Shown here piece by piece: positions 25,034 to 60,760 of a DNA stretch of 64,000 bases (its first letter is position 1; every line of letters starts with the position of its first letter). Origin of the DNA: Phlegmacium glaucopus (lineage: Eukaryota; Basidiomycota; Agaricomycetes; Agaricales; Cortinariaceae); NCBI GenBank assembly GCA_015039465.1, contig MU130497.1, positions 1,266,528-1,330,527 of the forward strand. The letters run 5' to 3'. A program made the translations under genes and the position numbers. The notes below the pieces were generated by a model. The model was not told where the DNA came from. It worked only from the letters and a program-made list of their open reading frames with translations, and searched no databases.

Positions 25034-25381
25034 ACACTTTAACATGGTTTGAGGCCAGGTAATTAAAATTTTGAACTTGTAGAATGGAAGCCATATACAA
25101 GTAGATTTTATCTTTGAAAATCTAATCCTAAATCCCATCTGTTGTGAATAAAATAGCCCATGGAAATATACATCTAAACATTCTCTACATTTTACAATTA
25201 TATTTGTCCAAAATGGTGAAGGAATGAGTAATCTATGGGCCCACCATGGTAGATCAATAATCAATGTGCAGGGAGTAATAGCATGCTTCATATTGAATGT
25301 CTTCCTCATATGTTATTTATCTGAGTTCCAAAACAGCTACTTCAAAAATTTCAAAACAAACAAATGACAACAACTGATTGC
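25034..25381 (+). repeat. Dispersed repeat related to 34930-35290
   Basis: Shared landmarks with 34930-35290 are acactttaacatgg, taatcctaaatcccatctg and cccaccatggta. The repeat is the host of the gypsy insertion, and the last five bases (attgc) are the left target duplication. 34420-34460 is a related piece (atgacaacaac...attgctgg). Confidence 0.6.
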
Positions 25382-25762
25382 TGTTACGATTGTATACACG
25401 ATATGTACGCACCTTTTTCATTTCCTTTTCCATTATCACACATGCGCACTCCATGCAATGTTCATTGTTTCATTTACATGCTGTTACGGTTTACTTTTCA
25501 TACATGTGTCGAACACATGTTGTACATACCTTTACCGCATGCCTTTCATTTCCTACTTTTGTATATAAACCTACATATCTTATATATTGTTCGATACCTA
25601 GTCTTTAATAGACAATCTTCCTACTCTTATTCTCTCTCAAAGACGACCGCTGCTCTAGACCTTTACAAGTCTACGAAGCACAAGTCCTCAGACTGAACCC
25701 AAACTCCAACATAGCGACGACTGTTAACAATCAGTGTATCTGAATCGTTCGAAGTCGTAACA
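25382..25762 (+). repeat. 5' LTR of the Ty3/gypsy element
   Basis: 381 bp beginning TGTTACGATTG and ending AAGTCGTAACA, so the ends form an inverted TGTTACGA/TCGTAACA pair. The left flank is attgc (25377-25381). The first 151 bp match 32716-32866 forward. The remaining 230 bp match 34109-33880 read backwards without complementing. Confidence 0.95.
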
Positions 25763-26804
25763 AAAGACTAGGTGTCTACATGAACTCGCATACTTTCTAT
25801 AGTTGCGATTACCTGAAACAAAACAAAACAAAACCGAATGTCGAAACTTGGTGAAAGACCCGATCGACACCTAAACCTCTGAGCAACAGCATCAAGTTCA
25901 AGAAACAAAAGAGGGACTTTCAGATATTCTCAGTCCTCTGAATCAACAAATGATACTGAAGGAGATTTTTCTACTCCTCCCAAACCCACAGTCGAACCAA
26001 CAGAAGAAGCGCTAGAACAAGCTCTTGCTGCACTCAGCGCATCTAGAAACCCATTGGACTTTTCACGAGAAGAATCTAACCCATTCCAATTGTTCTTTGA
26101 TCCTACTGAAACCCGAACTGAACCCGATCTGTGGTCTTTACCACTACCCAAAACAAGAACCCTGACCACGACATCCAACAGAATGGATGAAGAAAACCAG
26201 AACTGCCCGATTGCTTGTTCCAAAGCAAAAGAAATTAAACTGAACATGCCGAAACCCTTTACCGGCAAACGAGACAAATTGAGGAAGTTCCTCCTCGATG
26301 TAAAACTCTACCTGACGATCAACGACAAGATCTACGATGACAACTTAAAAAAAGATTGCCTTTCTTTACTCACTGATGACGAAGCAGCTTCTTGGAAAGA
26401 AGAATATGTTGCGAATATCTTTGACAACACGGTCACTGGAACTAAGCCAAACTTTGGCACTATTCTCAACTTCTTCAAACTCCTTGAAGAATCCTTTGCA
26501 CAATACGACACGAAGGGCGATGCCCTAAATGACTTGAAATATCTCCGACAGGAGAAAACCTCGATCGACGAGCACATCGCTCAATTCAAGATCTTGGTGC
26601 AGAAGAGTGGTCTCAAAGACGAGATTGCTATAACCAAACGATTTGAAGACTCGATCATTCCTTCATTACGACAAAGAATCCTGACGTTGGAAAAACCCCC
26701 CTCGACAATCGCTGGATGGTACGAATGGGCTTCACGCCTAGACCATCAATGGAAGAGGATGATGAACTCCTTTTCCCGAGGAAACACAAACCAGAACAAA
26801 ACTG

Positions 26805-27782
26805 AGGTCTTTACACTCCCCCACATTGCTGTACTTTACAGTCCCCCACATACTCCGCTGGACTCCACCGGACTCCACCAGACTCATTTGTGACTCATTT
26901 GTGACTCCCTGTCACATACTGGACTCCACTCTGTTAAGGTTCTGTTAAGGTTCTGTTAGGGTTCTGTTAGGGTTCTGTTAGGGTTGTTAAGGTTCTGTTA
27001 GGGTTTTGTTAAGGTTAGAAAGGTATCATGTGTCCAATTTTATTAGATTCCACCAGAGTCCACCAGACTAGTCCAATGGAGTCTGCTGGACTTAGTCTGG
27101 TAAGAGTCCACCAGAGTCCATGGACTCTGGTGGACTCAAAATTGAAATTTGTCCCATGTAACATTCACACAGTTTAGGACTTGAGTCTGCCAAAGTCCGC
27201 TGGAGTCCACCAGAATTTAGTGCCAGAGTCCAGTGGATTCCGCCGGAGTATGTGGGGGAGTGTACAGTCCTCCCACATTGTCCGGCCGGAATTCTGCCGG
27301 ACTGACCAGAGTCTGGCGGAAGTCCGGCGGACTCCAGAAAAGTCCGGTCAGAGTCTGGTGAGAGTCCGGTGGAAGTCCGGCGGAAGTCCGGTGGAAGTAC
27401 AAAATATGCCTGTATCCCCTCCTAACCCTCCTAACTTAAGAACGCGCTACCACACGGACAGAAAATATCCCCATCCCTAAATATTAATCCTAAGCCCTAA
27501 GCCTAAGCCCTAAATCTAAATATAACCCTAAGCCTAACCTCTAAATCTAAATATAACCCTAAATTCCATCAAAAGTCCAGCGGATGTCTGGTGGAAGTCT
27601 GCCAGACTGTGACCAGACATACAGTCCAGGCATTTTTCTACTTTCACCGGACTCTGACTGGACTCTGACCGGACTCTCACCGGACTCTCACCGGAATTTT
27701 ACCAGAATTTTACTGGAGTCCGCTGGACTTTTGGCAGTCTGGCAGACTCCGGCTGGACAACGTGGGGGACTGTAAAGTACAC
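26805..27782. mobile_element. MITE in gypsy gag, itself carrying a second MITE
   Basis: The ends are aggtctttacactccccc and gtgggggactgtaaagtacac. The perfect 8-bp duplication caaaactg lies at 26797-26804 and 27783-27790. Without the inner insertion (26829-27272 plus its 8-bp duplication) it is about 526 bp, close to the 536-bp relative at 24312-24847, which it matches in opposite orientation, including tccggcgga arrays and the taaatctaaatataaccct block. Confidence 0.92.
26829..27272. mobile_element. Inner MITE nested in the gag MITE
   Basis: The left end is ctgtactttacagtccccc and the right end gtgggggagtgtacagtcctc. The 8-bp duplication ccacattg is perfect (26821-26828 and 27273-27280) and consists of outer-MITE sequence. 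The interior has gactccaccagag units and a gttaaggttctgttagg array like the MITE at 15552. It transposed after the outer MITE. Confidence 0.9.
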
Positions 27783-28151
27783 CAAAACTGGTACATCAAA
27801 TAAAAACCAGAACCCACAAGGAAGACGATGGAACTTCCAGAAGAAAGACCCGAATGCGATGGATGTGGACGCAATGTCCATAGATGAACAAAATGATGTG
27901 ATGCAAAAGGGGCTCTGTTTCAAGTGCAAACAGCCCAGACACCTTTCCCGAGACTGCACAAAGACAGTCTCTAACCAGAACAATATGAAAAGCTGGCAGA
28001 AGAAACCAGAAGTCCCCGAAATCAAGAAGATGAAGGGAAAAGAATTACACTCCCACATCCAAGCCTTGATGGCAAAGATGGATGAAGATGACAAAGAAGA
28101 GTTCTTCAAACAGGCGGATGACCAGGGTTTTTAATACGGAGAACTTCCTCG

Positions 28152-31100
28152 ATGCAAGTCTCTCCCAGTCTGGATATTTACTCTGTCTGTAGCACTACGA
28201 TAATGAACAATTCAATTTCCATTCCAATCATTATCGTAGGACAGACATCAAGTAAGGAAGACATTGAAACCCAAGGACTCATAGACACTGGAGCTGGAGG
28301 AAAGTTTATCGACCAGAATTACGCAAGAAAATCTGGATTCAAGATCGAAAAACTTGATGAACCACTGAAGGTCTTTAACATAGATGGAACACCAAACAAA
28401 TGCGGAACTATCAAGACATTTGTTGATCTTGATCTTATTGTAAACGGACAACGGAAAACAGAACGACTCTTGGTCACAGGCCTTGGAAAACAGAGGATCA
28501 TCCTTGGTTTTCCTTGGTTACAAGAAACCAACCCAGGGATTAACTGGAAGACTGGAGTATTCTCCTGGAGAAATGAAAACACGGACACTGGCAAACAGCG
28601 CTTCTTTAAGTGAAACATGAAAAAGGACACCTCGAAACAAGAATTCCTGAAATCTTCAGTTCAAGATGAAGATGACAAAGAAGAATATTTGAATTCTACA
28701 CTGAACCCCCTTGATGACGACGAACTATCAGTACTCATCGCTTTTATAACTGGTGAATCAGACAATGACTTATGGATCAACACAAAAACATCTGCATCGC
28801 AAACACTTGCACAGAAATATGATAAAAAGGAAGATATTCCGGTTGAAAAACTGGTTCCAAAAGAATATCACGAGTTCCTTGATGTATTCAACAAAAAGAA
28901 AGCAGACAGATTTCCTGACAAACGGCCCTGGGATCACAAAATCAAGATGAAACCTGGATTTGAACCAAAATCCTTCAAGAACTACAATCTCACCCCGGAA
29001 GAACAAAAAGAACTGGACAAATTCCTCAGAGAAAACCTCGAACGACGTTATATTCAAAAATCAAAATCACCAATGGCATCTCCTTTCTTCTTCGTCTCTA
29101 AAAAAGATGGGAAGTTACGACCTTGCCAAGATTACCGATATTTAAACAAACACACAGTCAAAAATGCTTACCCTCTACCTTTGATCTCCAAAATTATGGA
29201 CAAACTAAAAGGCGCAACTTGTTTTACCAAGTTTGATGTCCTTAGAGGTTACAACAACGTCCGGATCAAGAAAGGTGACAAGTGGAAAGCAGCATTCAAA
29301 ACGAACAGAGGACTTTTCAAACCGACAGTTATGTTCTTTAGCATGTGCAACTCCCTGGCTACATTCCAGGCAATGATGGATTCAATTTTTGAAGATCTCA
29401 TCGAAGGTGATTATGTCATTGTCTACATGGACGACATCTTGATTTTTGCGACATGTGAAAAAGATCTCAAAGAAATCACAAAGAAGGTCCTACAGCGATT
29501 ATGAGAAAATGACTTATACTTGAAACCGAAGAAATGCGAATTCAACAAGAAGAAAATCAAATATCTCGGAATGATCATTGAAGAAGGCAAAGTCTCTATG
29601 GATTCCACAAAACTCAAAGGAATTAGAGATTGGCCTACACCTACTACCGTCAAAGAAGTACGATCATTCCTTGGATTTGGAAATTTCTACCGCAGATTCA
29701 TTAAGAAATTCTCGGAACTCGCTGGACCTCTCAACAATCTTTTAAAGAAAGACAAAACATTTGAATGGACACAGGAATGCCAAGACATGTTCGAAACCCT
29801 GAAGAAATGATTCACTGAAGAACCCGTCCTGATGATGCCAGATCATACGAAACCTTTCCAGATTGAATGTGACGCATCAAAATACACATCAGGTGCAGTC
29901 CTCACACAATTGGACTCAAATGGAGACAGACATCCGGTCTCTTTTATTTCGAAAACATTCTCTCCAACAGAACGAAACTACAAAATTTATGACAGAGAAT
30001 TACTTGCAATTGTTTAAGGACTCCAAGAATGGCGACACTACATTCAAGGATCCTCTCATACAATGATTATATTGTCAGATCACAAGAACTTGACATATTA
30101 TTGGGAAGCAAAGAAACTGAACCAAAGACAAGCAAGATGGTCTTTATTCCTCTCTGAATTCGACGTGAAATTGGTACATTTGGCCGGCAACAAAATGATT
30201 CAATCAGACACCCTCTCCCGACGACCCGACTATTGTCCTAAAGAAGACAATGACAATGAAGATATCATATTACTCCCTGATAGTCTTTTCCTCAATCTAA
30301 TCGACACCAACTTACAAGAGTGAATTGCTTCCGCCAATGATTTAGATCTCAACGTTGCTGAAGCAATAAAACTGTTACTTGACACTGGGTCTTCTACTAT
30401 ACAGAAGGATCTCAATGACTGGACGACCGAAGAATTTGAAGGAAAACAAGTTCTCTTTTACAAGGGAAAGAACTATATTCCTAAAGATTTTGAACTACGA
30501 CGGGACATAGTCAAGATGTTCCACAATCCTGAAATGGCCAGACACCCTGGAGAACTTGAGACTTATAATGCAGTACAACAGCATTACTGGTGGCCTGGAC
30601 TCCGAACATTTGTTAAGAATTATGTCCAAGGATGTGGAACTTGTCAACAATTTAAAATTGACAGAAATCCCTCGAAACCGGCCTTTATGCCTGTAGAAGG
30701 AGCGAAATCAACACGCCCATTTGCCAATTGCTCTATGGATTTCATCACTGACTTACCACCTGCCGAAGGATACAACTCTATCTTGTCTGTGGTCGACCAA
30801 GGTCTTACAAAGGGGGTAATTCTCCTACCTTGCAACAAAATGATTACCGCCGAAGAAACTGCCCAACTTTTACTTGAAAATCTTTACAAAAGATTTGGTT
30901 TACCTGACCAATTATTATCCAACCAAGGACCTCAATTTGCTTCTCAATCATTTAGAGAGCTTTTGAAACTACTCAGAATCACATCCTCCCTCTCGACAGC
31001 TTATCATCCTCAAACTGATGGAGCTACTGAACAAACGAACCAAGAAATCGAAGCTTACTTATCAATTTACTGCGCATCACATCCAGAAGAATGGCCAATT

Positions 31101-31769
31101 GCCTTGAATACTTTGGAATTCACCCACAACAACCGAAGACATGCTGACCAATTACACACTCCATTCAAACTCATGTTTGGAGAATCCCCAATTGCGATTC
31201 CCTTATCTTTTGAAAACACGAAATATCCATCAATCAAAGACAAAATGAAGACACTGATCAAGAACCAAGAAGAAGCTCTTGCAGCACATGAACTTGCATG
31301 CACACGCATTGCAGAACGCAGACGATTGAATTTCATCCCGTTCAAGAAGGGACAGAAAGTTTGGTTAGACTCACGCAACCTCAAAACGTTGTACCACAAG
31401 AAAATGGCCCCAAAATGCGAAGGACCTTTCAAAATCACAGAAGTCTTAGGACTGATCACTTATGAATTACAACTCCCCTCCTCATGGAAGATACACAATG
31501 TCTTCCATGCATCTTTACTCCGACCGTACAAAGAAAACGACATCTACAGAGAAAACTATACTTGACCCTCTCCTGAACTTCTAGAAGGCAAAGAAAAAGA
31601 AGTCTACGAAATCGAAATGATACTCAAACACAGACGACGAGGACGAAACATCCAATACTACATCAAGTGGAAAGGATATCCAATCTCCAAAGCATCGTGG
31701 GAAAACAAAGAAGCCTTCTCTGACGACGGAGATTTGCTGTTAAACTATAAACAACAACATCAACTCTAG
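28152..31769 (+). pseudogene. Pol polyprotein: protease, RT, RNase H, integrase, chromodomain
   Basis: A single frame with six internal stops: 28611, 29502, 29808, 30015, 30321 and 31563. All but 30015 (TAA) are TGA. The protease has the catalytic DTGA (GLIDTGAGGKFID, about 28278-28317). The reverse transcriptase has [21 protein letters not shown] and the YMDDIL catalytic loop (29425-29442). RNase H starts near IECDASKYTSGAVL (29863). The integrase has a GCGTCQQ zinc-binding end, then SMDFITDLP (first Asp), then LLSNQGPQFA, where family members carry Asp at the Asn position, and the Glu region ATEQTNQEIE. A chromodomain (YYIKWKGYPISKASWENKEAF, near 31660-31715) ends the protein at TAG 31767. 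It would copy and integrate the element, but this copy cannot. Confidence 0.93.
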
Positions 31770-32715: not shown

Positions 32716-32866
32716 TGTTATGATTGTATACACAATATGTACGCACCTTTTTCATTTCCTTTTCCATTATTACACATGCGCACTCCATGCAATGTTCATT
32801 GTTTCATTTACATGCTGTTACGGTTTACTTTTCATACATGTGTCGAACACATGTTGTACATACCTT
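32716..32866 (+). repeat. 3' LTR of the gypsy element, forward part only
   Basis: 151 bp, starting TGTTATGATTG, nearly identical to 25382-25532. Identity stops abruptly after tacctt at 32866. Confidence 0.95.
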
Positions 32867-34109
32867 AAAATGACTCTTATACTAAGACCACTATTATAAA
32901 CATATAATTTAAATGTAACAAATTGTCCTTGTATCACTTTGACGTTTGTCCCTTTTCCCTATGTATATATATAGTATGGTTTATTATGACCGAGTCATGG
33001 TCAACTTCTCCATATTTAGAACTTGGATCAACTTGAGTATAAAAAAATTTTTGTAATAAATCGAAAATGGTCAGTAAAAAATTGGGGTTAAAGTTGTCTA
33101 AAACTTAGTGTCATTGAGGTTATAAGAATTGGAAGATAGGACGTCACGAGAGAGTTGAAACTTCTTAGTTTCCGTCGTCAAGTCCTAAAACGTCTATACA
33201 TTCAATAATATTAGGGACGTGTTTGTATAGAGTTTGTATAAAGTGATCTTTCAACAAATCATTCTAGGATACGAAAAGTGTTTGTCTAAAGGTTGGGAGT
33301 AAGTGAGTACCCAAACACTACCTATAACCGGAGGTAGAGTAATAAATGTTGGTATAATTTGACCTGGTGTAAGAGGTTCTTGTTGTTCTTAATCCTCGTG
33401 TATGTTTGTAACAACTTAAGGTCGGGTCATTTTGAAATTGGAAGTACACCTATGTAGGATCACGTGTAGGTTACCCTCAACCTCAAAGATTGGTCACAGA
33501 GTCGACTTTAGTGGAGTTTTGATACTTTGGTTGAAGGTTAGTTGAGTTGAGTCTTTAATGGAATTTTAGATGTCATACGTTAAAAACTTTTGTGAAATAA
33601 AGGGAGCTCTATACCTGGAAGTTGATCCCCATTACGTGTTCCCCGTACCTACCGAAAGTGGTTACAATTTTTTCTACTCTTAAATTACCTATGTCGGATC
33701 TCTGAAATGTAGTCACTAAGACAAAAAAAAAAACACCATAATGTAAGTTTAAGAATAGTACTTTTGTTACTGGTTGTTGACTAAGGACCGTTTTACAACA
33801 ACAGAAAACAAACATAGGTGTTACTTTTTCACAAATCTTTCGTCTGTATTTGTTCTAACTTGTTGAAGAAAGACCGTTAACAATGTTGAAACTTGTTAAG
33901 TCTATGTGACTAGCAATTGTCAACAGCGATACAACCTCAAGTCCAAGTCAGACTCCTGAACGCGAAGCATCTGAACATTTCCAGATCTCGTCGCCAGCAG
34001 AAACTCTCTCTTATTCTCATCCTTCTAACAGATAATTTCTGATCCATAGCTTGTTATATATTCTATACATCCAAATATATGTTTTCATCCTTTACTTTCC
34101 GTACGCCAT
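32867..34109. other. Mirror-image (reversed, not complemented) DNA block
   Basis: Read from 34109 down to 32867 without complementing, this block starts taccgcatgcctttc and continues the interrupted LTR. 34109-33880 backwards equals 25533-25762 with about 8 transitions in 230 bp. Next comes attgc (33879-33875), the expected right target duplication, then flanking repeat sequence resembling 34420-34460. Undoing the reversal at exactly these two points restores a 381-bp LTR and joins the far end to the poly-A run at 34110. CpG is frequent and GpC nearly absent inside, the opposite of the surroundings. Any open frame here, on either strand, is meaningless. Confidence 0.95.
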
Positions 34110-34587
34110 AAAAAAAAAAAAAAAAAAAAAAAAAATTATTATTACTATTATAATTTTTATATATATAATTTTATTGAGAAAATATTCTTATGTGTATCAA
34201 CCTCTTTACATTATTGTGGCCAGAGCGCCTCCATAGGACCCAAGGAAGAAACACCTTTGAACTCAGAAACCTGTCATTTAGCTTCCAAAACAAACAACAG
34301 TGACTGGTCTTCAATTTTATGAGGTTTCATAGGGATGTTTTTGGGTAAATGGATAAGCACAAGTAATGGGTAGTAAATTAATAAGTGAACATTATAAATT
34401 ATCTCAAGAACCTTTTCAAAACAAATATATGACAACAACACATTGCTGGAAATGAGTTATTGATCATTGTTTGCTTCCTGGCTCCCATCATGATAGTTAG
34501 TCAAAAATAAGCAAACTGGAAAAAGCCAATAACCTAAGTATGAACAGACTCTGAGTCACATCACCTGATACATGATTACTACTAATG
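34110..34587. other. Poly-A tract and repeat sequence
   Basis: An uninterrupted A run of about 24 begins at 34110, followed by an A/T-rich region. 34420-34460 matches the sequence around the gypsy insertion site (atgacaacaac then attgctgg). No gene. Confidence 0.5.
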
Positions 34588-46619: not shown

Positions 46620-48905
46620 ACTCCATTTAACCAACTCCAAACTCAAGACTTCTCAGAATGAGGCTGCTCGTCTTCGGAAAACCTGTAGTTGTTCAAGGGC
46701 TGTGCAGGAGCGTGCAGTCATGACTGCTCATCAGAAGGTTCTGAAAGAGAAATCAGTTCATGGATTGATGAATAAGGGTGTATTCACTGATGAGACCCGC
46801 AATGTTGTCCGCCTGCTTGTGAAAGCTGGATGTTCACAGAACTACATCAACCGTGTTCTCCATGGTGTTCTTTCAGCTGCAGGAATCAAGACCATTGGCA
46901 CTATCAGCCGGCCTACAATCACACGTATTATGCGAGAAGGCTACTATGCAGCCCAAATTCAACTTGGATATGAATTGAAAAATGCTGCAAGCATGATATT
47001 CAGTGCAGATGGCACAAGTCACTGCAGTATAAACTACAATTCTCGACATGTCAATCTCAAAGCTGAGGTTTATGGTGCTGATGTTCCTGAGAAGGAGCGA
47101 GTCACTCGTTTCTTTGGAATAAAATCATCTTGTGATGGTTCGAGTGAGCCATCCTGAATGACATAATTGATCTCTACAACAGAAGTCCCTTTGGAAAACG
47201 GACTGGTGGTCTTCTCCGCATCATTGATATCCTCATTGCTCTTGCTGGCATGCATTCAGATCATCGTGCAAAGGAGAAAAAGGATGCACGGTTGATGGAG
47301 TTGCTTAAATCTGATGCTATTGATCATGCACTGGGAGAAGAAGCAATCCTGGAAAAGACAGTGGCAGAATTGGATATACTTTTTGAGGATGCAACCAAAA
47401 AGATGACAAAAGCAGCTGGTGGAAAAACAAAATGGGATGCTCTATCTAATGATTCTCAAGCTGAAAAACGAGCCACCATGATGGAATTACTTGTTGCTGA
47501 GCTAGGGAAAGAGGCATTTGAAATGTTGTCTGCTGATGAAAAACGCACACTCAAGTTATTTATCTGGGCAGGCTGTGGATGCCACAAAGACCTCAATACT
47601 GTCCGAGGTGGTTATGTTGAAATGGCTCAGTGGTGGCATGTCAATAATGTTGATGGACCAATCCTTCTTGCCAATCGTGATAATGCACTTGTTCTAGGAG
47701 AACGGGAAGCACAAATAGCCCAGGATGACACTACAACACCTGCTCAGGATCGAGCTTTTGATTCAACCTCCCATGGTGCAATAAAAGCCACACAATTAGC
47801 TGGTGCAATTTTAAACCATAAAGATGACAAAAAGGGCCACCATGATACTTTCCGATGGTGGTGGTTTGAGAATGTTGGGACTCAATTCACATTTCCTGAT
47901 ACTTCCAACACTTGTTTTCAGTCTTATTGTGATGGTGCTGCCATGCTACTTTTACACCTTCCCCACTTCATCAGCTTTCTTGAAAGTTTATGTGACAACA
48001 AGCAGAGCTCACAATTCAACCATATGGAAACAATGTATGGAATGCACTTCATTGTAGTGCAACAAAGACAGAATTTGCAGTGCTAGCAATATATGCCCAG
48101 GCTGTCTCCCACCCTTACATGAAAGCAGTCTGTGCATCTGGTGAAAAACAGCAGAATATGCTTGATTTAGGTGATCTACACCAAAAGGTTTATGATCATA
48201 TGCAGCAGCTGATTGAAAATCCAGACCTACTTGTTGGAGGTGCACCTGATTTATTCAAAAAGGGATCACTCAATGGAGAGGAGTGGCAGAATCCAGATGT
48301 TGTAGATATGATAATAAAGATGGTACCTAGTCTTCCTCATTTCAAGGAACATCTTGTTGCTTTTCTAACAGGTGCTATTGAAACATGGAAGTGATTCACC
48401 TCAGAATTTGCTCCAGGAGGACTTATTGAAGCAACTGTTGAAGAAAAGGAACTTGCTTGGATGCCAGCAACCAATGATGTCAATGAAGGAGCACTTGGGT
48501 CATTCCGGGTTTTAATGCGGCGACAACCACAGCTAACCTTGCTTGGCCACAATGCCTTGACAATGTATTTCCGAAATGACACAGAGGCATTCATGGCTGC
48601 AAAGTTCACCAAAGAAGAGGACCATGCCCACTTGCGTTATCTTGGACGCCAGCCACAAGGAGATAAGAAGAAACGGAGGAGGGAGCATGTTGAATTTCAA
48701 GAGGAGCATCGTACTGTAAAATTGGCAAAACGTGCAAAGCGACAGCAGACAACAAAGAATAATTTAAATTGGTTGGCATGTACAGCACTCATACTGGACA
48801 AGGAAAAAGTCACAGCATTGAAAGGTTTAGCCCTCAAAGACCAGTTGAAGGTTTATCAGCTTGCTGGTGCACCAAATTTGCAGCATATGAAACAACCTTG
48901 ATGAA
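46620..48905 (+). pseudogene. Coiled-coil transposase-like gene, copy B
   Basis: The frame enters from the KDZ junction without its own start and includes VMTAHQKVLKEKSVHGLMNK. Landmarks are GVFTDETRNVVRLLVKAGCS, ISRPTITRIMREG, MIFSADGTSHCSINYNSRH (46995-47050), NDIIDLYNRSPFGKRTGG, AGCGCHKDLNTVRGGYVEM (47570-47625), GQFTFPDTSNT-like, LAIYAQAVSHPYMKAV and PATNDVNEGALGSFRV (48462-48510). Conserved Asp in SADGT, Asp in HKDLN and Glu in NEGALG are candidates for a DDE triad (inference). Frameshifts lie near 47150 and 48035 and a TGA at 48392 stands where relatives have Arg. It runs straight into copy C at about 48903. Confidence 0.75.
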
Positions 48906-50507
48906 TCTGCACAAAAAGAGCACAAAGCAGCAATGTTGGAAAAGCTTACAACAGATCTTGGTCAAGATGCATTTGAAAAACTATCTGATAAGGAGAAAGC
49001 TATTTTCAAGCTATTTGTCTGGGTTGGATATGGGTGTCATAAGGATCTAAATACTGTACTTGGAGGTTATATTGCTCTGAGAAAATTTTGGGTTGAGCAT
49101 AGGCTGGAGCCACCTGTCTTACTTCCAAACAAATTCAATGAAGCCATAATTCAGGAGGCTGCTAAAGAAGACAAAAATGATTCTGAGGCTGCCCAACAAG
49201 CTGTTAAAAATTCCTCACAAGGTGGTATTAAAGCAACAAAACTTGCAGGTGATATCTTGAACAACAAAAATGACAAATCTGGGCATCATGATCAATTCCG
49301 TACCTGGTGGGAAACAAAAGTAGGCAAAAAATTCACCTTTCCTGATACATCCAATACACATTTTCAATCCCATTGTGAGGCTGCAGCAGCATTAACACTC
49401 CACCATGATAAATTTGTTGAATATCTTAAATATGCAAAAGACAAAAAGGAGCATGCATGTTATAGCCATATGGAGGAAAATTTGTGGAAAGCCCTTCATG
49501 ATATTCCAACTAGAACAGAACTTGCTGTTTTGGCTCTTTATTCTCAAGCAGTTAGCCATCCCTATATGAGAGCAATACAAAAAGATGCAAGTTTAAATGC
49601 TCTAAACCTTGGACCCTTGCATAAAAAGATTGAATCATTTTTGGTGCAAATTATAGAAGATCCTACATTTCTGGTTGGTGAACATGTTTCACATACAGTT
49701 GGGACCTTTGATGGCACACCTTGGCATTCACAGGAGGTTATTGATAAGATCAATAAGCTTGCACCTGATTTTCCACATCTTAAGCCAGCTTTAGTTGCAT
49801 TCTGTACTGGAGCACTGGTGACCTGGAAGCGTTTCACATCTGAATTTGCACCTGGTGGCTTAATTGATGAGGCTACACAGGAAGAAAGAGATTTAGCATG
49901 GATGCCTTCAACTGATGATATTAATGAAGGAGCACTGGGATCATTCCGTGTTCTGATGCGGCGTCAACCTCAACTTACTCTTCTACAGTACAATGCACAG
50001 ACAATGTTCTTCCAGAACAATACTAGGGCATTTATGAATGAAATGTTCTCAGATACAACTCATCAATATATCCGAGCAGTTTCAAGAGAGAGAGATGCTT
50101 CTGAGAAGGAGCATCTTGAAGGAATTGTTCAGCATACTGAGGAGAAAATTGCCAAGAAGGTAGCTGCTAAAACAAAGCATACAGAATGTGCAGTTCAAGT
50201 TGTAGATCATATGATATTTCCAAAGTTGCACTAATTTTCAAGGAGGATGAGATTGACAAGCTGAAAGGAGAAAAACTGAAGGATCATTTTCAGGCTTTCA
50301 AGAAAGCAGATGCTCCAAATCTTGGCACAATTAATAGCAAGTCAAAAGTTGCAGAGAAGAGAGAAGCTATCAAAGCAGCAATCAGATCATATAACAAGGG
50401 AGAATGTAGATCCTGGAATACAGAATGAAGATGAAGGAGATGTATTTGATGGATATAATGATTTTCACTCCTCAGATGAGAATAGTGGCTGGGAGGATGA
50501 TGAATAG
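48905..50507 (+). pseudogene. Coiled-coil transposase-like gene, copy C (3' half, 433-codon frame)
   Basis: The longest open frame in the element, 48933-50234, starts within the gene at MLEKLTTDLGQDAFEKLSDK and carries GYGCHKDLNTVLGGYIALRK, FTFPDTSNTHFQSHCEAAAA, SHMEENLWKALHDIPTRTEL and STDDINEGALGSFRVLMRRQ. After a frame change near 50220 it continues through KLKGEKLKDHFQAFKKADAP to an acidic end (DENSGWEDDE) at 50507. The 5' half, with the first candidate catalytic Asp, is missing. Less decayed than copy B. Its 3' flank leads without a break to the element terminus at 50766. Confidence 0.75.
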
Positions 50508-57950: not shown

Positions 57951-60395
57951 GACAATTCAAAATGCATGAATTTCATCCACAATGGTGCTACTTTGTTCTC
58001 TGCTTCAATTACAGACAACAATGCTGCCATGCTGGATGGTGTCACAGAACCTATTTCGGAGTATGCCAACATTGTCTCAACTCTTCCTCTTGATATCAAT
58101 CTCTGGCATCGTCGTTTAGCACACCATAGCTTCAGAGATGTTCAGAAGATGATCAATGAAGAGTTGGTAACTGGACTTGTATTAGATACAAAGCAAAAGC
58201 CAGATCCTATATGTGAACCTTGCCTGTCAGGCAAAATGCATTCAAATCCATTCCCTACATCTCCCAGTCAATCCTTGCACCCTTTGGAATTGATCCACAC
58301 TGATTGACATGGTCCTCTTCCTGTTGCAACACCAGAAGGCTATCGCTATTGGGTTGTCTTCATTGATGATTGCACAAAATTCAGAGTAGCTATGTTGCTC
58401 AAACAGAAGAGTGATACATTTGAAGCATTCAAAACATTCAAAGCTTATGCTGAGAATCAATTGAATTGCAAGATCAAATCCATGCAGGATGACAAAGGTG
58501 GTGAATACATGTCAAATGCTTTTATCAGGTTCACTGATAGTTGTGGAATTATGCGTCATCATACCACTCGCAACCGCCCTCAAATGAATGGAGCAGCTGA
58601 AAGAGCTAATCGCACTATGAGTGATGATATTACTACTATGCTCTTAGAGTCACGCTTACCTGCTTCATTCTGGGGTGAATGTCTTGCTGCTCACATGCAC
58701 ATATGGAATTGTCTTCCTACTGCATCATTACCTCACACTACACCTTATGAGGCATGGTTCAAAAGGAAACCTGATGTAGAGCACTTGCGAGTTTGGGGAT
58801 GCACTGCATATGTCTACATACAAGGGGACAAACGTAAATCTCTTCAGTCACACATGGAGAAATGCATCTTTGTTGGTTATCCTTCTGGATATAAAGGATG
58901 GAAATTCTATAATCCTACCACAAAGAAGTACATCATCTGTGAACGTGCAGAATTTGATGAACGTTACTTCCCCGGCTGATCTATTGGTCCATTGTCTAAA
59001 ATCAATCTTCAGGTTCCTTCATCACCTGGTGCTAATCTGTCACCCTTGCCTAATTTTGGGGGGGATGATGAACCATTGAATATGATACTTCCTCCAATTT
59101 CAATTCCAATTCCACAAAGTCCTCTAATTCTACCCCAATCACCACCACCCATTGTAGCACCTGAGCTATTACCACTACCAGAAAGGCCTCCACTTCCACC
59201 TCAATTACCACTCAATGCACCTGAGCCACAATTACCTAGGTGCTCTACACGCATTTCTAAACCTCCTTCAGATTGGTGGAAAGTGAGAACCCCTCCTCCT
59301 ATACTGGAGAGTGATGGTGAGGATGATAGGTTGGAAGAAGTCCAGTTTGCAGGATTAGCAGTAGGAGCTGAGCCACGTACCTATAAACAAGCAATGAAGA
59401 GTGATGATGCAGAGCGCTGGGCAGAAGCTGCTAATGCTGAATACAACACTCTCTTGCAAACTGGCACATGGGAATTGGTTGAACTCCCACATGGGCAGAA
59501 GGCAATTGGATCTGGTTGGGTCTTTAGAGTTAAGCATAATGCAGATGGTTCTATTGAACATTATAAAGCTAGAATTGTTGCCAAAGGCTACAGTCAGCGA
59601 CCAGGCATTGACTACACAGAGGTCTTTGCTCCTACATTTAGACCTGCAACACTACGCTTGATCCTTGCCCTAGCAGCTACACAGGACCTTGAATTGTGTT
59701 CCCTTGACATCTCCTCTGCTTTCACCAATGGTGACCTTGAGGAAGAGATATATATGACTCAATCAGAGGGATTCCATCAAGGTGGACACAATATGGTATG
59801 CAGACTGCAAAAATCTTTGTATGGTTTAAAGCAGTCTGCTCGTCAATGGAATAAGAAACTTCATGATGCTCTCAGCGATATGAGTTTCAAACGCATTGAA
59901 TCTGACCGCTCTGTTTACATTTACACTAATGGAGAGGTTAAGATCATTGTACCCATTTATATTGACGATATCACCTTTGCATCCAAGTCCACTCCTGCCA
60001 TTGAGAAGGCTATGGATCAACTTGCACAACATTTCAAATGTCAAGTCCTAGGACCTACAGAATATTTGCTTGGTGTTGGGATCACTAGAGATCATAAATC
60101 TCACACCATCAGACTTCATCAGTGCCAGTTCATCCTTGACATACTTGAATGTTATGGTATGAGTGACTGTCATCCTGTCCTCACACCTATGGCGCCTGGG
60201 ACTGTCTTAACAAAGCAAATGAGTCCTAAAACTCCAGAGGAAGAGACATTCATGAAGAGTGTCCCCTACCTTAGTGCAATTGGTTCCCTTCAATATCTAG
60301 CTACTATGACTTGTCCAGATATTGCATACACTGTGTCTTATTTGGCACAGTTCAACTCCAATCCTGGCCCTAGTCATCGGGTCTTGCACACCACT
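57951..60395 (+). pseudogene. Copia pol: integrase and reverse transcriptase, truncated
   Basis: It begins at the linker NSKCMNFIHNGATLFSAS, then shows a GAG-pre-integrase LWHRRLAHHSFRDV with the CEPCLSGK zinc end (58200-58235). TGA 58305 follows. The integrase core has VFIDDCTKF, KSMQDDKGGEYMS (second Asp region) and NGAAERANRT (Glu). TGA 58977 is followed by a proline-rich linker and the reverse transcriptase (AIGSGWVFRVKHNADGS; EIYMTQSEGFHQGG; catalytic YIDDI at about 59957-59971; ILECYGMSDCHP). It is cut off at 60385 before RNase H. It lacks gag and protease, which lie on the opposite strand at 61532-62709. Confidence 0.9.
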
Positions 60396-60760
60396 CTACT
60401 CGCCTGCTTCAACACATTGTCATGGTCAGCAGATCTTAGCAGCTGCATCTCTTCCTCTAGAACTCCTTGTTTGTCCAAGCCACGCCGAGTAGCTTGTCTC
60501 TGCATACGGAGCTCATGGTAGAGAGAACCTTGTGTTTGGATTGAACAGCCTTAAGCTGTAATTTCAAACTCTAAGCCTTAGATCTAGCAAGAGAAGCAAC
60601 TAGATCGGTGCATATAGCAGTCTTTGTACTCAATGCAGCATCAAGATGTTCTTGAGCTTTGAGTGCCTCTCTAAGCTCAAATATGTAAGAACAAGCTGTC
60701 TCTGGAATTGCTTGGCGTCTGAAGCACAGACAGTTGTTCCAGGTTAGACACAGTTCTAAT
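60396..60760 (-). pseudogene. Coiled-coil piece, possibly of the transposase-like family
   Basis: The minus strand has open segments with heptad-like character (SYIFELREALKAQEHL; LYHELRMQRQATRRG-type) resembling the N-terminal coiled coil of copy A at 43033-43650. A stop and a frame change interrupt it. The resemblance is by eye only. Confidence 0.35.

Follow-up and report, generated by a model that had tools for sequence, protein, structure and literature searches.

Mirror-reversed sequence beside gap marks in the Phlegmacium glaucopus assembly points to a probable error of gap patching

A Ty3/gypsy element with a reversed end

The window, i.e. the whole stretch of 64,000 nucleotides analysed here, corresponds to C171:1266528-1330527, where C171 is the contig that carries it in an assembly of 60.5 Mb and 259 contigs. 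It contains a Ty3/gypsy retrotransposon, recognizable by its pair of long terminal repeats (LTRs), its target duplication, gag, reverse transcriptase and an integrase that follows the reverse transcriptase, the coding parts lying in separate open pieces (Pfam PF03732, PF00078 and PF17921/PF00665). The second LTR and the right duplication of this element are complete only if the adjoining block is read backwards. The features of the locus are the following.

25377-25381, + strand: left target-site duplication attgc, from the sequence; it recurs backwards after the mirrored LTR
25382-25762, + strand: 5' LTR of the Ty3/gypsy element, 381 bp, from the LTR comparison and the element proteins
26054-31565, + strand: coding fragments of the element by Pfam, namely gag (26054-26893), reverse transcriptase (28617-29504) and integrase (30516-31565)
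32716-32866, + strand: first 151 bp of the 3' LTR, correctly printed, on the contig side of the break
32867-34109, no strand: mirrored block of 1,243 bp, presumably a gap-extension patch of the left contig, from mirror matches, junctions and CpG/GpC content
32867-33874, no strand: 1,008 bp of the repeat adjoining the insertion, backwards, from forward copies elsewhere
33875-33879, no strand: right target-site duplication attgc, printed backwards as cgtta, from the sequence
33880-34109, no strand: last 230 bp of the 3' LTR, printed backwards
34110-34135, + strand: 26 A, probably a gap placeholder of 25 bases written as A and followed or preceded by one further A that is there by chance, from run-length counts

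When its uncomplemented bases are taken in descending order, from 34109 to 33880, the block agrees with 25533-25762 of the 5' LTR at 222 of 230 positions, and all eight differences are transitions, in agreement with the initial annotation, which had counted about eight. These transitions are confined to the last 83 bases of the mirrored part, the first 147 bases being equal to the 5' LTR without a difference. A mirror scan of the whole window returned a single pair, the block against the 5' LTR, with an E value of 5e-106 that rules out chance. The plain and reverse-complement self-scan of the window listed no match that joins the block to the 5' LTR, and an inversion by reverse complement is therefore rejected. 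The reversed alignment and the scan thus confirm the earlier claim that 32867-34109 is the plain reverse, and not the reverse complement, of the expected sequence.

The LTR fixes both ends of the block to the base, as had been proposed. The forward part of the 3' LTR matches 25382-25532 with 98% identity (3 mismatches in 151) and ends at the last base before the block, and 151 and 230 bp add up to the 381 bp of the intact LTR. The five bases after the mirrored LTR, read backwards, are ATTGC, the left target duplication; these observations likewise bear out the initial annotation. Set backwards, the block is continuous with the right flank (34136 onward) in forward paralogs, and eight matches cross its left junction, while none do so as printed. 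The 26 A stand directly after the block. The forward paralog at locus L015 has roughly 80 bp of other sequence at this place, counted by eye in the one paralog printed. Over 4,001 bases that include the block, the assembly copy and the window agree in every letter, so the mirror is present in the assembly itself.

The nucleotide composition of the block fits a sequence history in forward order. Eight forward copies of the flank repeat contain 0-5 CpG and 20-22 GpC; the flank in the window contains 1 CpG and 22 GpC when set backwards, and 22 and 1 as printed. The whole block as printed has 30 CpG and 9 GpC. The direction of CpG decay could not be taken from single substitutions, because the events were too few (CpG/GpC 0/0 in the window block and 0/2 in the block on contig C164), so that only the dinucleotide totals are informative. 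Private differences of the window block amount to 10 substitutions and 2 indels, compared with 3-38 substitutions and 0-9 indels in the forward copies.

Further to the right, the window holds a Copia-type reverse transcriptase (58992-60521; RVT_2, PF07727) and two open reading frames, 47250-48086 (278 aa) and 48933-50234 (433 aa), both of which are identical over long stretches to a single annotated hypothetical protein of P. glaucopus at NCBI (P0014, 708 aa, no Pfam match). This protein contains, letter for letter, residues 5-261 of the 278-aa frame and 256-418 of the 433-aa frame; the latter frame has 669 relatives.

Mirrored stretches elsewhere in the assembly

The initial annotation dealt with neither a placeholder character of the A run nor the extent of the phenomenon in the genome, both of which are added here. 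With the block flank set backwards (1,012 nt) as query, 33 genome matches were found; the eight best have 92-97% identity, and six of these eight span 1,000 nt or more of the query. The block as printed also matches two other contigs, C164 with 95% over block positions 18-916 and C214 with 84% over block positions 1013-1145, which belong to the mirrored LTR. A second repeat, mirrored at C214, gave 60 first-look genome candidates in its mirrored form; 40 of these 60 were scored, and 40 of 40 match at 88-100% on 32 contigs, the query's own place included. For the forward form there were 757 first-look candidates, 40 of which were scored.

The sequence read comprises the entire contig C214 together with 69.5 kb of C164 and 134 kb of C171, in total 280 kb, or 259 kb without N. 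About 18 kb of these 259 kb are reversed, a share that is biased upward because C164 and C214, two of the three contigs, were picked for matching the mirror. A 6-mer direction model, which makes no use of homology, flagged seven segments, among them the window block and blocks on C164 and C214; its segment ends are blurred, and some span N. Junctions speak for the same direction: 7 of 7 tested patches continue their contig when un-reversed, with 2-8 matches across the join, while 0 of 7 do so as printed. Based on eleven patch intervals, some with approximate ends, all 138 mirror matches (100 bp or longer, 80% identity or higher) have exactly one member in a listed patch, while all 472 plain matches have both members or neither there. 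Since the intervals were partly set from the same matches, this parity is a test of consistency and not an independent proof. The presumed extensions that are affected are those of the left contig (window, C171, C164 and C214) and of the right contig (C164 and C214).

Two other features were seen around these patches. The right-side mirrored patch at C164:414772-417703 (locus L013, 2.9 kb) continues a tandem array of roughly 126-bp units at 417704-418389, so that the array is present in both directions. At one gap, 95 identical bases occur on both sides (C171:1242245-1242339 and C171:1248830-1248924), and the left patch of C171, read backwards, resembles the right contig (98.8% identity over 2,256 bp); this hints at either a copy in tandem or a gap that is not real.

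Mirrored stretches stop at gap marks. Two of them end at C171:1244887 and C171:1338687, directly before N runs whose first bases are C171:1244888 and C171:1338688; a third starts at C214:43142, where it abuts an N run ending at C214:43141. Runs of A take the same position. The 26-A run at C171:1300637 bounds the window block (with its two neighbours, C171:1300636-1300663, it is listed among the 26-A runs), a 27-A run at C164:414745 has mirrored sequence on both sides, and runs of 42 A at C214:29888 and 25 A at C214:61211 each bound a mirrored stretch. In all seven patches with mapped ends, the far side abuts an N run or a run of at least 25 A, and the contig side joins correct sequence. Loci L003 and L021 add two more cases, with mirrored sequence that begins directly after 37 and 25 A, respectively. 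The 44 A at C214:61259 lie within or next to a mirrored stretch whose forward copy starts with 18 T, and they could thus be a genuine tail.

By our own reading of the 280 kb, 9 of the 16 edges of eight gap marks are mirrored and the other seven show no visible mirror; for one of the nine, at C214:61236, the evidence is the direction model together with matches whose start lies 49 bases further inward. Ends are approximate at the left of the patch before C171:1338688 and at the right of the patch at C214:61236. No mirrored edge was seen at the fourth N run (C171:1264789-1266527), and at locus L018 a run of 25 A has no mirrored neighbour in sight.

The lengths of A runs suggest that these runs are marks in the file. 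Counting every window of 25 A gives 827 on the printed strand against 194 on the other strand. Runs of exactly 25 A number 157 on the printed strand versus 1 on the other, those of 26 A 72 versus 1 and those of 27 A 25 versus 1, and the count at exactly 24 A is 0 versus 1. In real DNA neither a preference for one printed strand nor an avoidance of length 24 would be expected. From the counts at 25 and 24, the run of 25 A looks like a gap placeholder. A model in which every run has a constant 25 A and is lengthened only by adjoining A that occur by chance predicts, when fitted to the lengths 25 and 26, 24.8 runs of 27, and it gives about 264 such placeholders in the assembly.

The copies of the second repeat were also compared by their proximity to A runs. 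With exact-25 runs alone the signal was weak (within 5 kb, 3 of 22 mirrored versus 0 of 31 forward copies), so the comparison was widened to runs of 26 and 27. Of 40 mirrored copies, 9 then lie no more than 2 kb from a listed run of 25-27 A, against 0 of 40 forward copies (Fisher p 0.0024); the counts are 9 and 1 within 5 kb, and 10 and 1 within 10 kb. Of the four distances tabulated, 2 kb is the only one to which Fisher's test was applied. The other 31 of 40 mirrored copies are more than 2 kb away from any listed run of 25-27 A, in a comparison confined to A runs of these lengths and covering 100 of the 158 exact-25 places.

Origin of the reversal

The position of the block beside 26 A, together with other backwards stretches beside gap marks, makes a software error in gap patching likely. 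Judged from sequence, the block is almost certainly an artefact of the assembly at a patched gap and not a biological feature. We propose that the blocks are extension patches and that the placeholder is N turned into A. In such a process a gap patcher would extend the left contig into a scaffold gap, the extension would be written in reversed order without complementing, and a 25-base placeholder, printed as A, would then precede the next contig. The 25-base mark would stand where extensions had met without overlap or had exceeded the gap, and larger remaining gaps would stay N. In the fungus itself, the block would stand in normal order. The Ty3/gypsy element, for all its typical 381-bp LTR, 5-bp target duplication and proteins, is simply where the defect comes to light; other patches sit in other repeats.

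The program was probably PBJelly, as used at JGI after ALLPATHS-LG. According to extracts of a paper that covers Cortinarius glaucopus (PMC7550596), Illumina reads were assembled at JGI with ALLPATHS-LG, and hybrids were patched with PBJelly; this statement is a general one for hybrid assemblies, and we assume hybrid status for Phlegmacium (Cortinarius) glaucopus. PBJelly, in the extracts available of its description (PMC3504050), treats 25 or more N as a gap, adds extensions of the flanks and can leave overfilled gaps. The likeness to the present case lies in contig ends that are extended into gaps, in the 25-base gap unit, at which the A-run lengths start sharply, and in gaps that are reduced and not closed. 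In contrast, the same extracts describe neither a reversal without complementing nor marks printed as A. A literature search, at the level of listings and hence no proof of absence, brought up no apparent report of an assembly defect that is reversed but not complemented.

Within the explanation by faulty gap patching, it is also quite possible, though we consider it somewhat less probable, that the reversal arose in a step other than PBJelly, either in a later file conversion or in an in-house gap closer that complemented minus-strand patches without reversing them. Complementing alone would yield the same letters from a minus-strand patch, and N printed as A would suit a two-bit or similar conversion of the patches. 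In addition, the block shows no excess of indels over the forward copies and thus no error pattern of raw long reads, as might be expected of a PBJelly patch; corrected reads would give the same. What is described for PBJelly in the extracts of PMC3504050, however, does fit the mark of 25 bases and the extensions that reach only partly into large gaps.

The initial annotation had left the choice between a data-handling error and a deliberate edit, and the first of these is sustained by blocks that occur on many contigs and stop at gap marks. A deliberate edit of the window or of the genome copy, for example a planted test, would account for a reversal that is perfect and for the agreement of window and genome over the 4,001 bases compared. 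It is nonetheless very improbable: such blocks occur far outside the window, together with gap marks on many other contigs and in divergent repeat copies, and a plant would not need 157 exact runs of 25 A.

Even more improbable is a mirror that is real in the molecule, by copying in parallel polarity or by systematic exchange of A with T and C with G. In its favour, the reversal is exact to the single base and reappears across the genome, and sequences of systematic exchange ("swinger" sequences) have been claimed in print (PMC4942731, PMC7027195); a mirror is indeed equal to A-T plus C-G exchange on the opposite strand. However, stretches that stop at N runs and strand-biased runs of 25 A are properties of a file and not of DNA, and the CpG content fits the forward order. 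Swinger segments would have limits independent of assembly gaps and would follow several of 23 exchange rules, whereas the segments here end at gap marks (N or 25 A) and reach 80% identity under complement and reverse only. Among 48 transforms of letter exchange and direction, off-diagonal matches of at least 80% came from the two normal and the two mirror transforms alone. A first run had given long matches for C-G and other swaps, which we read as mostly same-place alignments of sequence with biased composition. After same-place forward matches were dropped, 13 other transforms kept 1-15 matches of at least 100 bp, with a maximum identity of 76.4%. A missed hairpin adapter, present in about 1% of PacBio reads according to extracts of PMC3504050, or an ordinary inversion in long reads has a negligible probability, because either would give reverse complements, and no such match of block and LTR was listed.

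Implications for the public reference

In conclusion, this locus brings no new biology; what it reveals is a genome-wide quality defect in a public reference. By the estimate from run lengths, this reference appears to hold some 260 placeholders of 25 A together with many kilobases of reversed sequence. A mirror scan and a strand-wise count of runs of exactly 25 A should expose the defect in other assemblies. We speculate, as a possibility that we regard as rather unlikely, that all contig-extension patches of the assembly stand in reversed order and that the same silent defect, recognizable by strand-biased runs of exactly 25 A, occurs in other published genomes from the same pipeline, filed there as orphan repeats, solo LTRs or unknown sequence. 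Repeat annotation, LTR dating, gene models and screens for horizontal transfer that touch reversed stretches would be wrong.
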